From: Bacteroidales bacterium | GTDB taxonomy: Bacteria; Bacteroidota; Bacteroidia; Bacteroidales; WCHB1-69 | NCBI GenBank assembly: GCA_017438945.1 | Contig: JAFRUI010000005.1 | Span: forward strand, 1-48,736 | DNA length: 48,736 nucleotides | Reading direction: 5' to 3' | Shown here: piece by piece, positions 21,004 through 47,688 of the stretch | How positions within the stretch are numbered: position 1 is the first letter of the stretch | How the letters are laid out: every line of letters starts with the position of its first letter | Made by a program: the position numbers and the translations under genes | Notes under the pieces: model-generated | Database searches by the model: none | What the model was told of the DNA's origin: nothing | The model's input: only the letters and a program-made list of their open reading frames with translations

Positions 21004-21030
21004 TAGGGGCGAATAATTATTCGCCCCTAC
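21004..21030. repeat. REP palindrome R1 (26-bp perfect, GTAG head)
   Basis: 21004-21016 and 21017-21029 are exact reverse complements with no loop. On the minus strand it begins GTAG (21027-21030). It lies between elbB and aroK. Confidence 0.8.
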
Positions 21031-21752: not shown

Positions 21753-21780
21753 GTAGAGACGTTTCATGAAACGTCTCTAC
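21753..21780. repeat. REP palindrome R2 (28-bp perfect)
   Basis: 14-bp arms without a loop; it begins GTAGAGAC and ends GTCTCTAC. An identical copy is at 28541-28568. Confidence 0.9.
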
Positions 21781-27671: not shown

Positions 27672-27696
27672 GATTGCGTATGCGATACGCCCCTAC
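27672..27696. repeat. REP palindrome R3 at the end of rsmA
   Basis: Inner stem 27676-27681/27685-27690 with a gcg loop, extended by G and C runs. On the minus strand it begins GTAG at 27696-27693, whose TAG is the rsmA stop codon. Confidence 0.7.
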
Positions 27697-28454
27697 GACA
27701 ATTTCCCCGTCAAGTATTCGAAATCCCCCAACGACAACTGCTCCGCACGTTTCGTGAACAGCGGCTCAGTTTCCACGAATGCCTTGTCGAAGGGCAACGA
27801 CTGCAGGGCGTTGCGGAGGGTCTTGCGGCGGTAGTTGAAGGCGGTCTTCACCACTGTGCGGAAGGTCTTCTCGTCACAGTTCAACTTCTTGTCGAAATTG
27901 CGGGTGAGGCGGATGACGGCCGATTTCACCTGCGGAGGCGGCGTGAACTCATGCTCTCCGACGGTGAAGAGATATTCGGTGTCGTAATATGCTTGTAGCA
28001 AGACACTTAGGATGCCGTACTGTTTGTTGCCCGCGTGCGCACAGACCCGCTCGGCCACTTCCTTCTGGAACATGCCCACGACCTCCACCACGGTCTCTTT
28101 CTCATCCAACACCTTGAACAGAATCTGCGAGGAGATATTGTAGGGGAAATTGCCCACAACAACCTTTGGTCCCTTACAGAATTCAGACAGGGAATATTGC
28201 AGGAAATCGCCGTGAATCAGATTGTCACCCAATTCCGGATAGTGAACTTGCAGATACTCAACGGATTCTTCGTCTAATTCGATGACCGCGAACTGCGGGA
28301 ACTCGCGTTGCAAGAGATATTGTGTCAGCACACCCATGCCGGGACCAATCTCTATCACATGCGCGTCAGGCGTGCGGATGGCGTCGGCGATATCCTGCGC
28401 AATCGCCTGGTTATTCAGAAAATGCTGTCCTAAACGTTTCTTTGCTCGTACCAT
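27693..28454 (-). CDS. rsmA: 16S rRNA (adenine1518/1519-N6) dimethyltransferase
   Basis: The 253-residue protein has the SAM-binding motif VIEIGPGMGVLTQYLL, a VIELDEESVEYL acidic loop and the catalytic NFPYNISSQIL (NLPYNI-like). Near the C-terminus are the FTPPPQVKSAVIRL and FNYRRKTLRNAL motifs typical of KsgA/RsmA. It dimethylates two adjacent adenines in the 16S rRNA 3' hairpin. The stop codon is TAG from the GTAG head of REP R3. Upstream is a promoter box and a heptamer array. Confidence 0.95.
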   Translation of the reverse strand: MVRAKKRLGQHFLNNQAIAQDIADAIRTPDAHVIEIGPGMGVLTQYLLQREFPQFAVIELDEESVEYLQVHYPELGDNLIHGDFLQYSLSEFCKGPKVVVGNFPYNISSQILFKVLDEKETVVEVVGMFQKEVAERVCAHAGNKQYGILSVLLQAYYDTEYLFTVGEHEFTPPPQVKSAVIRLTRNFDKKLNCDEKTFRTVVKTAFNYRRKTLRNALQSLPFDKAFVETEPLFTKRAEQLSLGDFEYLTGKLS

Positions 28455-28539: not shown

Positions 28540-28569
28540 TGTAGAGACGTTTCATGAAACGTCTCTACA
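28540..28569. repeat. REP palindrome R4 (30-bp perfect)
   Basis: The same 28 bp as R2, plus one extra pair outside. It lies between divergent rsmA and the rSAM/lipoprotein pair. Confidence 0.9.
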
Positions 28570-45845: not shown

Positions 45846-47024
45846 ATGAAAGGACGTAACGACAAGCTGCACATCGGCATTTTTGGGCGGAGGAACAACG
45901 GCAAGAGTTCCCTTATTAACGCCATCACGGGACAGGAGGTCGCCATCGTGGACGCCACGGCCGGCACCACCACCGACCCCGTGCGCAAATCCATCGAGAT
46001 TTTCGGCATCGGTCCCTGCATCATCATCGACACCGCCGGCATCGACGACGAAGGCGCCGTCGGGGCGAAACGTATCCAAAAATCACTGGAAGTGTTGAAA
46101 ACCATCGACTTGGCCATCCTCGTCATCACCGATTACGAGGTGGGCATTCCCGAACGGCAGCTGATAGAACAGTTCCACCAATTCGAACTTCCTTACCTCA
46201 TCGTCAACAACAAATGCGATCTGACCACTCCTCGAGAGATGGAAGTTGATGATCGCAAGGTTCTGGATGTCAGCACGAAAACGCATTCCGGCATTGACGA
46301 GATGCTGCAGGAGGTGGTACGCATCATGCCCGAATCGGCGTACCGCACCCGTTCGCTGCTCGGCGACCTCATCGGTGAGGGCGATGAAGTGCTGTTGGTG
46401 ACCCCCATCGACACGGAAGCCCCCGAAGGCCGGCTCATCCTCCCGCAAGTGCAGACCATCCGCGACATCCTTGACAATGAGGCGGTTGCCATCGTGCTGA
46501 AGGAGGACAAGGTGGCGGATTACCTACAGAGCCACCGCGCCCCGAAATTGGTTGTCACCGACAGCCAGGCATTCCACAAGGTGGAGAAGTTCGTGCCGGA
46601 AAGCATCCCGTTGACGGGCTTCAGCGTGGTGTTGGCGCATCAAAAGGGCGAATTCGGAGCTTATCTCAAAGGGACCCCGAAGTTGCGCGACCTTCGCGAC
46701 GGCGACCGCATCCTGATGTTGGAATCCTGCACGCACCTCACCTCCTGCGAGGACATCGGGCGGGTGAAACTCCCGCGTCTTATCCGCAAGTTCACGGGCA
46801 AAGAGCTACAGTTCGATTTCGTGTCGGGTCTCAATCAAATCCCTGACATCCAGCAATATGCGATGGTCATCCAGTGCGGGGGCTGCATGGTCACCCGCAA
46901 GCAGTTGAAGGAACGGTTACGCCCCGCCATCGAAGCGGGCATCCCGGTCAGCAACTACGGCATGGTGCTCGCCTACGTCAACGGCATTTTCGACCGGGCG
47001 GTGGCACCGTTTGCCGCATTGTAG
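45846..47024 (+). CDS. hydF: [FeFe]-hydrogenase H-cluster maturation GTPase
   Basis: The 392-residue protein has a GTPase domain (GRRNNGKSS, DTAG, NKCD), a middle dimerisation domain and the C-terminal Fe-S domain with SCTHL and QCGGCM. It is the scaffold that assembles the [2Fe] unit before delivery to HydA. The usual cluster pattern is CxHx(46-53)HCxxC; here the residue before the CxxC is Gln and the spacing is 45. No hydE, hydG or hydA is in the window. Its TAG stop is the TAG of a GTAG REP head. Confidence 0.93.
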   Translation: MKGRNDKLHIGIFGRRNNGKSSLINAITGQEVAIVDATAGTTTDPVRKSIEIFGIGPCIIIDTAGIDDEGAVGAKRIQKSLEVLKTIDLAILVITDYEVGIPERQLIEQFHQFELPYLIVNNKCDLTTPREMEVDDRKVLDVSTKTHSGIDEMLQEVVRIMPESAYRTRSLLGDLIGEGDEVLLVTPIDTEAPEGRLILPQVQTIRDILDNEAVAIVLKEDKVADYLQSHRAPKLVVTDSQAFHKVEKFVPESIPLTGFSVVLAHQKGEFGAYLKGTPKLRDLRDGDRILMLESCTHLTSCEDIGRVKLPRLIRKFTGKELQFDFVSGLNQIPDIQQYAMVIQCGGCMVTRKQLKERLRPAIEAGIPVSNYGMVLAYVNGIFDRAVAPFAAL

Positions 47025-47052
47025 TCGCGGACGCGATTTATCGCGTCCGCGA
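47021..47052 (+). repeat. REP palindrome R6 at the end of hydF
   Basis: GTAG (47021-47024, contains the hydF stop) is followed by 12-bp perfect arms (47025-47036/47041-47052) with a ttta loop. Confidence 0.88.
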
Positions 47053-47082
47053 CGCGTCCGATTTATTTTGCAGGCGGACGCG
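47053..47082. repeat. inner inverted repeat of the BIME-like unit
   Basis: cgcgtccg (47053-47060) and cggacgcg (47075-47082) lie between R6 and R7, completing a mosaic of palindromes in the gap between convergent genes. Confidence 0.6.
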
Positions 47083-47089
47083 GTGAAAA

Positions 47090-47113
47090 GGACGCGGTGA
47101 ATCGCGTCCCTAC
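47090..47113 (-). repeat. REP palindrome R7 at the end of the RAYT gene
   Basis: On the minus strand GTAG (47113-47110, contains the RAYT stop) is followed by 7-bp arms ggacgcg/cgcgtcc. Confidence 0.85.
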
Positions 47114-47688
47114 AGCGATTTCCATTTGGTGGGATTTTGTTCGATATATTTGGTAATACGGATCTTTTCATTCCTGTTGCGGATAATACGGTCGTGGTAA
47201 CGGGGTTGCCATTTGAATGGGATATTGTTTTGTCGGGCGAATTGTGTCACCCGCGCTTTCAACCCCCGCATGACCGTTGCCAATGATTCATTCAACATTG
47301 GATTCTTGTTCCCTGTAATTCCTCCTGCTTGGACGCGATTGTCGGGTTCGTGGACGCGATGAATCGCGTCCCTACTACGGGGATGGATTGCGACAATCAA
47401 ATGAATATGGTCTGGCATAATCACATAAACGGGTATTTCGACGTATGGATAATGATCTGAAACATTTTCAATTTCCGCCGTCAAATATTCGCCTACTGCT
47501 GTCAATTCCATTTGCCCATTATACACTTCGCCGAAATAATGCACACGGTTTTGTGTGCAGACCGTAACAAAATAGTCCGATTCTCTATAATCATGCCATT
47601 GGGCACGGATGGTTTCGCGAGCGGGAAGAAGCTGTCGATAGCCTGAGGGATTTTCATTGCAGAATGTTCTGTCTTTCCTTGTTTTCAT
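47110..47688 (-). CDS. REP-associated tyrosine transposase (RAYT, IS200/Y1 type)
   Basis: A 192-residue Y1-type transposase. It shows DYFVTVCTQNRVHYFG, the HUH motif VIMPDHIHLIV and the C-terminal YHDRIIRN...YIEQNPTKW that carries the likely catalytic Tyr region. The stretch GGITGNKNPML is typical of Bacteroidetes RAYTs. Such enzymes cut single strands at REP hairpins next to GTAG. A REP is embedded in the gene (encoding SRDAIHRV) and a REP provides its stop codon. It is read from promoter cassette C. Confidence 0.9.
   Translation of the reverse strand: MKTRKDRTFCNENPSGYRQLLPARETIRAQWHDYRESDYFVTVCTQNRVHYFGEVYNGQMELTAVGEYLTAEIENVSDHYPYVEIPVYVIMPDHIHLIVAIHPRSRDAIHRVHEPDNRVQAGGITGNKNPMLNESLATVMRGLKARVTQFARQNNIPFKWQPRYHDRIIRNRNEKIRITKYIEQNPTKWKSL
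47352..47375 (-). repeat. REP palindrome R8 inside the RAYT gene
   Basis: On the minus strand GTAG (47375-47372) is followed by 9-bp arms ggacgcgat/atcgcgtcc with a 2-nt loop. The reading frame splits the TAG (cGT AGt), so no stop results, and it encodes part of RSRDAIHRV. Confidence 0.85.

Follow-up and report, generated by a model that had tools for sequence, protein, structure and literature searches.

GTAG-headed REPs whose TAG coincides with the stop codon of hydF and other genes in a Bacteroidales genus

In the window, by which we mean the whole 48,736-nt stretch of DNA analysed here, two convergent genes each end in a TAG that belongs to the GTAG head of a REP. The locus raises the question of whether REPs are drawn to stop codons, as an earlier note had suggested, or bring the stop codons with them. 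The window corresponds to contig C22 of assembly G000 (1.86 Mb, 44 contigs, 63% complete), and the nearest named relatives of its hydF come from MAGs of uncultured Bacteroidales/Bacteroidetes, some of them labelled as sheep, goat, yak or reindeer samples.

The hydF-RAYT gap and its REPs

The following features of the window are referred to below.

27693..28454, minus strand: RsmA/KsgA-like gene (Pfam RrnaAD, 6.2e-51), with its TAG stop inside GTAG 27693-27696
45846..47024, plus strand: ORF of hydF ([FeFe]-hydrogenase maturation GTPase), stop TAG at 47022-47024
47021..47053, plus strand: R6, GTAG head at 47021-47024 and a 14-bp palindrome, a derived copy
47053..47082: inner inverted repeat CGCGTCCG / CGGACGCG, arms 14 nt apart
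47090..47113, minus strand: R7, GTAG head at 47113-47110 and palindrome GGACGCGATTCACCGCGTCC, supplying the RAYT stop
47110..47688, minus strand: RAYT-like gene (putative Y1/HUH REP-associated tyrosine transposase, by Pfam and NCBIfam), 192 aa
47352..47375, minus strand: a further REP of this family, within the frame of the RAYT-like gene, found by pattern match

The hydF product matched Pfam PF18133 (3.1e-44), PF18128 (3.5e-38) and PF01926 (7e-20), the HydF dimer and tetramer domains among them. Its stop codon and that of the RAYT-like gene are 85 bp apart (gap 47025-47109). The hydF stop is contained in GTAG 47021-47024, and the RAYT stop lies inside GTAG 47113-47110 on the minus strand, the ORF ending at 47110. 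The earlier note, which had described a REP mosaic between the two convergent genes with GTAG heads giving both TAG stops, was right on both counts and in its coordinates, as ORFs and a repeat search indicated. It had also let the palindromes cover the whole gap; two inverted palindromes and the inner repeat (8-bp arms, 47053-47060/47075-47082) were found, but 47061-47074 and 47083-47089 lie outside the arms.

The R7 palindrome spans 47090-47109 and is inverted relative to 47029-47048, with 90% identity over 20 nt. The R6 palindrome (47024-47037/47040-47053) is perfect over 14 bp, and R6 does have the head and palindrome ascribed to it. However, four bases, TCGC, split its GTAG from the canonical stem GGACGCG and are mirrored as GCGA on the other arm, so that a GTAG followed at once by the palindrome is exact in R7 and in the REP within the RAYT gene, and in R6 only with 4 extra bases. 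At the hydF stop of G028 and G006, GTAG and GGACGCG adjoin with no bases between them. R6 is a derived, non-canonical GTAG-REP. The pattern GTAGGGACGCGN6CGCGTCC, at up to 3 mismatches, matched three times in the window and never in 100 shuffles. The RNA of 47010-47125 is predicted to form one long hairpin (-60.4 kcal/mol, z = -5.85). A search for a T-tract terminator-like site at the mosaic found none, and an intrinsic terminator was rejected there for want of the T tract.

The RAYT-like product matched Pfam Y1_Tnp at 1.2e-5 and, as its best NCBIfam match, NF047646 (1.8e-14; 53.8 bits, under the cut-off of 80), and the HUH motif HIH is visible in the translation. The REP at 47352-47375 is translated in frame as SRDAIHRVHE and sits just after the HUH-motif region; longer REP arrays occupy this position in G006 and G028. 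Upstream of the gene, as far as the contig end at 48736, no REP match or head was found. The gene is thus accompanied by one downstream REP and one in frame, not flanked by two inverted REPs as in a REPtron. Its C-terminus is shorter than in G028 and G006, and its downstream REP is offset from the stop by 0 in the window and L286 and by 10 in G006 and L279 (G028).

Two kinds of REP, related to each other, occur in G000: a few-copy kind, GTAGGGACGCG-N6-CGCGTCC, and a symmetrical kind, GTAG-AGACGYGCCATGGCRYGTCT-CTAC, with about 30 sites when 3 mismatches are allowed. At the same tolerance there were 28 forward and 28 reverse matches (both subfamilies pooled, symmetrical copies counted on both strands), and 0 and 1 for a control pattern; the GTAG REPs are dispersed and multi-copy in this genome. 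Other species of the genus have the same REP frame with different tips. The GTAG of the RsmA/KsgA-like gene precedes an imperfect, possibly decayed hairpin, and in the G003 orthologue a canonical GTAG-REP head is the stop, one codon earlier. Further GTAG and hairpin heads in the window, at 21027, 21753-21777, 28541-28565 and 31923, are at no called stop.

One REP locus of G000 (C25:38606-41629, L003) and its counterparts in G012 (C60; L034, L042) have flanks that are 100% identical over the ~1 kb compared, although the hydF proteins of the two species are only 91% identical; this would be either a recent transfer or a binning artefact.

Frequency of GTAG heads at stop codons

To count as a head, a GTAG had to be followed by a hairpin whose stem was 8 bp or longer, with no more than 1 mismatch, and whose loop was 2-8 nt; genes were mechanical ORFs of at least 100 aa, with overlaps of up to 60 nt allowed. 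The discovery set comprised the window, stretches of G000, G002, G003, G004 and G006 and one stretch of G009; the replication set consisted of 30 further loci, from G022, G007, G012, G028 and other genomes, and 60 stretches of G007, G012, G022 and G028. Heads less than 60 nt from the start or less than 100 nt from the end of a locus, as well as sequence-context duplicates, were excluded before counting.

In the discovery set, the TAG of the head was a stop codon in 18 of 257 cases, and in the replication set in 15 of 170. After displacement of every head by 5-300 nt, repeated 500 times, on average 0.20 and 0.09 heads fell on stops, with a maximum of 2 in either set. The coincidence supposed in the earlier note is therefore far above that at shifted positions (33 of 427 heads in all); it is real and recurs across related species. 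At least one zero-offset ORF (L011) looks spurious and was kept in the counts; two of the 15 replication cases (L324 and L346) were already known before the count, and a third, L360, is orthologous to L194 of the discovery set.

Among heads 0-60 nt past a stop, the offset was zero in 18 of 84 and 15 of 55, an excess over a uniform 1/61 with p = 2.5e-15 and p = 1.1e-14, respectively. Because a symmetrical REP yields two heads, which are then not independent, we also counted gene families: 14 (discovery) and 15 (replication) at zero offset, and 57 and 32 at offsets 1-60 pooled. Of the 427 heads, 6 were in the final 60 nt of a gene on their own strand (2 in discovery, 4 in replication). When called ORFs of both strands were considered, spurious ones among them, 79 of 253 heads fell within one. 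A wider set of 322 heads, 24 of them at zero, includes loci chosen for two zero-offset genes and hydF and was kept out of these counts.

Of the bare GTAGs 0-60 nt from gene ends of the same loci, 37 of 94 in discovery and 11 of 39 in replication coincided with the stop, which reflects how common TAG is as a stop in these loci (149 of 542 genes and 70 of 243). Compared with them, REP heads were at stops less often in discovery (odds ratio 0.42, p = 0.014) and equally often in replication (27% versus 28%; odds ratio 0.95, p = 1.0), and with both sets pooled the figures were 33/139 for REP heads and 48/133 for bare GTAGs (p = 0.034). An earlier count on genes of at least 150 aa, superseded by the one at 100 aa, gave 26/100 and 52/116, in the same direction. 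The counts thus show which null to use genus-wide: the effect looks huge against random positions and is gone against available GTAGs.

Of the 30 zero-offset families, 9 could be compared with REP-less orthologues at 65% identity or more and at species-level divergence. Among the 54 orthologue ends, which for hydF include L288-type relatives whose REP precedes the stop by a few codons, GTAG occurred once, compared with 42 of 622 REP-less background ends (Fisher p = 0.24); the stops were TAA in 30, TAG in 14 and TGA in 10, and background ends had TAG in 163 of 622. With no excess over GTAG availability, a preference for stop codons as such is unsupported, and these REP-less ends are not GTAG-enriched either; we rejected the preference proposed in the earlier note. 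Two readings fit the counts: REPs may sit on GTAGs that were already there, or they may be tolerated up to the inner limit of gene ends. The single GTAG among 54 REP-less ends speaks for a TAG brought by the REP, although at species-level divergence the stop codon may have changed after the lineages split. For REPs away from stops, 26 candidate empty-site pairs were compared, many of which were unequal arrays, decayed copies or badly aligned junctions.

Gene ends with and without REPs

At hydF, eight relatives with neither a REP nor another palindrome at the end (87-98% identical) all stop with TAA: four end in PFAAL (L281 from G009, L284, L296 and L282 from G002), three in PFATL (L289, L294 and L065 from G007) and one in PFA (L285). 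The end PFAAL followed by TAG and the REP was found in the window, L279 (G028), L280 and L283 (G006), and L286 ends in PFTTP followed by TAG and the REP. Since the REP-bearing hydF ends in FAAL like its REP-less relatives, the protein is unchanged, and the expectation that a REP whose GTAG ends a gene does little harm held at hydF. L064/L290 (88%), with TAG before a different palindromic array, were set apart. The REP-less end L296 derives from MAG RUG13189 (L295, L296, L297: CADADB010000038, CADADB010000020, CADADB010000002), which has two differing partial hydF N-terminal copies, 97% and 92% identical to that of the window, and may be mixed.

A GGTCGC hairpin lies 980-1000 nt past the hydF stop in G028 and G006, with the RAYT gene and REPs between, and 25-28 nt past it in L281, L284 and L296; this spacing places the left edge of the inserted segment at the hydF stop codon. 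In the window and in L286, another gene lies beyond RAYT than in the relatives. In the hydF tree, at least 4 changes of the RAYT+REP state are required over 22 rows, with a 10-row clade lacking resolution. In two other branches (L063, L287, L288 and L066, L291), a GTAGAGACG REP with another tip precedes the usual hydF stop by 9 nt and is translated as FVET...SL[PS]*. The hydF end is thus hit by REPs at two positions.

For 11 non-RAYT families with a comparator, the C-terminus was shifted by 0 in five, by up to 2 codons in five and by +10 in one. Besides hydF, the zero-shift families were a type IX secretion-signal protein (L008/L179; compared with paralogues of 51-55% identity, the CHU_C profile matched to 84/86), L013 (0 versus G028, which is 83-84% identical to the G021 copy; G009 ends three codons earlier), a peroxiredoxin (L257) and L354. 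The RsmA-like gene, L335 and the second gene of L288 were one codon shorter, the comparator of the RsmA-like gene being the window copy, itself with the imperfect hairpin. L243 was longer by one codon, an aldose-epimerase gene by two (profile matched to 298/299) and L217 by ten, its native TAA being lost. In three pairs (L013/L196, L140/L221 and L194/L360), the gene and the GTAG stop are kept between species and the hairpin stem differs, which suggests a hairpin that is swapped or drifts at a fixed position.

The reading we favour is that a RAYT-like gene and its cognate GTAG REPs have probably lodged at the 3' end of hydF, a harmless lodging of the kind that REPs would have found at other gene ends too. 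At hydF, the REP would have brought its own TAG in place of the native TAA, which we take as the likely ancestral stop, with the same protein; the RAYT stop would likewise be REP-supplied, with a shorter C-terminus than in G028 and G006. REPs cluster just past gene ends and are scarce within the last 60 nt of genes, and the stop coincidence would recur because of this. An in-frame TAG at the native stop or 1-2 codons off would be the innermost position that spares the protein, reached by direct landing or by later small deletions of the spacer between stop and head. Selection against altered C-termini, rather than the transposase, would then make the zero-offset peak. Several observations count against lodging. 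The 79 of 253 heads within ORFs indicate that REPs are not simply barred from genes, the extensions by 2 and 10 codons are not in place, the L257 peroxiredoxin has CGG as its last codon where 14 comparators have AAA or AAG, and L064/L290 have TAG with a different array.

That RAYT instead joins hairpins 3' of a pre-existing GTAG is in our judgement unlikely. The GTAG of a REP at a stop would then have belonged to the gene all along, stops being no more than the most frequent GTAGs around gene ends. This model predicts, without a free parameter, that REP heads share stops as existing GTAGs do, which agrees with 15/55 versus 11/39 in replication, the share being lower (18/84 versus 37/94) in discovery. 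In addition, the base before the comparator stop is already G in 4 of the 5 zero-shift families (post hoc; p = 0.01 against 22%), though other comparators of these families end in CTA (hydF L284), CTT (type IX paralogue L245) and TCT (G009 of the L013 family). The closest REP-less peroxiredoxin relative (L256) and two such relatives at a family-C site (L218) also have TAG there, after A or T. The REP-less ends argue against it, with GTAG and TAG no commoner than in the background, as does the uniform TAA of the eight REP-less hydF relatives; so does a REP that is on the stop in L354 and 17 nt past it in L207. In the biochemistry reported for the E. coli enzyme, as far as the passages of that paper go, GTAG is a possible guide beside the hairpin and cleavage is at CT or CA (PMC8266576).

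The L354/L207 pair also bears on lodging by way of later spacer loss. The two proteins (G007 and G003) are 97% identical, and before the REP the loci differ by one 17-nt segment between 6-bp CGTGTA repeats, both flanks aligning. Altogether, the offset of the REP head from the stop differs between species in two gene families, being 0 or 10 nt in one and 0 or 17 nt in the other, and for L257/L258 (offset 31) and L140/L220 (offset 55) a REP lies farther downstream in another species, the REPs not being clearly related. Judged from the alignments, the deletion route would have one clean family (L354/L207) and one probable one (RAYT); the change was presumably a deletion. A tentative and rather doubtful extension is that the stop position is an end state after insertion, REPs being pulled onto the stop when the spacer between two GTA copies, one at the native stop and one in the REP head, is deleted. 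If so, TAA or TGA would become TAG without protein change, REP expansion would shift the stop-codon usage of the genome, and hairpins would be placed at zero distance from termination sites.

It is improbable that the stop-adjoining hairpin is kept for a selected function, namely slowing termination or controlling the mRNA 3' end of hydF and its neighbour. E. coli REPs up to 15 nt from the stop are reported to stall ribosomes (PMC12306157, its ref. 17, as cited in the part consulted), the transcript across the mosaic has the strong predicted fold given above, and in three families the position is kept though the hairpin differs between species; against this stand the absent T-tract site, closely related species without a REP at hydF and the unrelated genes that bear stop-supplying REPs. 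Simple truncation, in which REPs land inside gene ends and an in-frame TAG (one in three) becomes an earlier stop, has in its favour the one-codon losses in three families and the shorter window RAYT, but it is very unlikely and was rejected as largely refuted by the offset distribution, since out-of-frame heads should be about twice as many as zero-offset heads (6 of 427 were found against 33), five of the 11 families show no shift and three are extended (1, 2 and 10 codons).

Comparison with known systems

Stop-sharing REPs are natural markers of where and how REPs arrive, and the hydF locus offers REP-bearing and REP-less ends, each with its stop known. As the hairpin palindrome begins right at the hydF stop, the zero distance may affect translation termination.

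IS608, of the IS200/IS605 family, inserts 3' of the tetranucleotide TTAC and has a related Y1 transposase fold. In the present loci, GTAG stood at 1 of 54 REP-less ends, no more often than in the background though at species-level divergence, which gives no sign that a pre-existing tetranucleotide directs the arrival of REPs.

The E. coli TnpA-REP recognises GTAG and a hairpin, as the present RAYT may, and the passages of that study which we consulted state that the mechanism of REP dissemination is still to be elucidated (Corneloup et al. 2021, PMC8266576). In many cases, according to the part consulted of Nunvar et al. 2010 (PMC2817692), REPs adjoin the rayt stop on its downstream side or lie very near it. 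Compared with the RAYT/REPtron of that work, here the REP is itself the stop codon, an upstream REP was not found and another REP lies in frame.

The literature passages searched, in which few subscription journals were represented, yielded no REP-less comparison of stop-supplying GTAGs. The closest likeness is to the GTAG-tagged REPs of Di Nocera et al. 2013 (PMC3733652), which in the section consulted have a GTAG head and a short palindrome beside gene 3' ends, and whose GTAG termini often provide a TAG stop to flanking ORFs. That section makes the statement without a count, a control or a REP-less comparison, whereas here the coincidence was counted in one Bacteroidales genus and REP-less ends were compared. 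Stop supply by a GTAG REP at hydF is accordingly a new instance of a feature printed in 2013, to which a null model and in-place evidence are now added.
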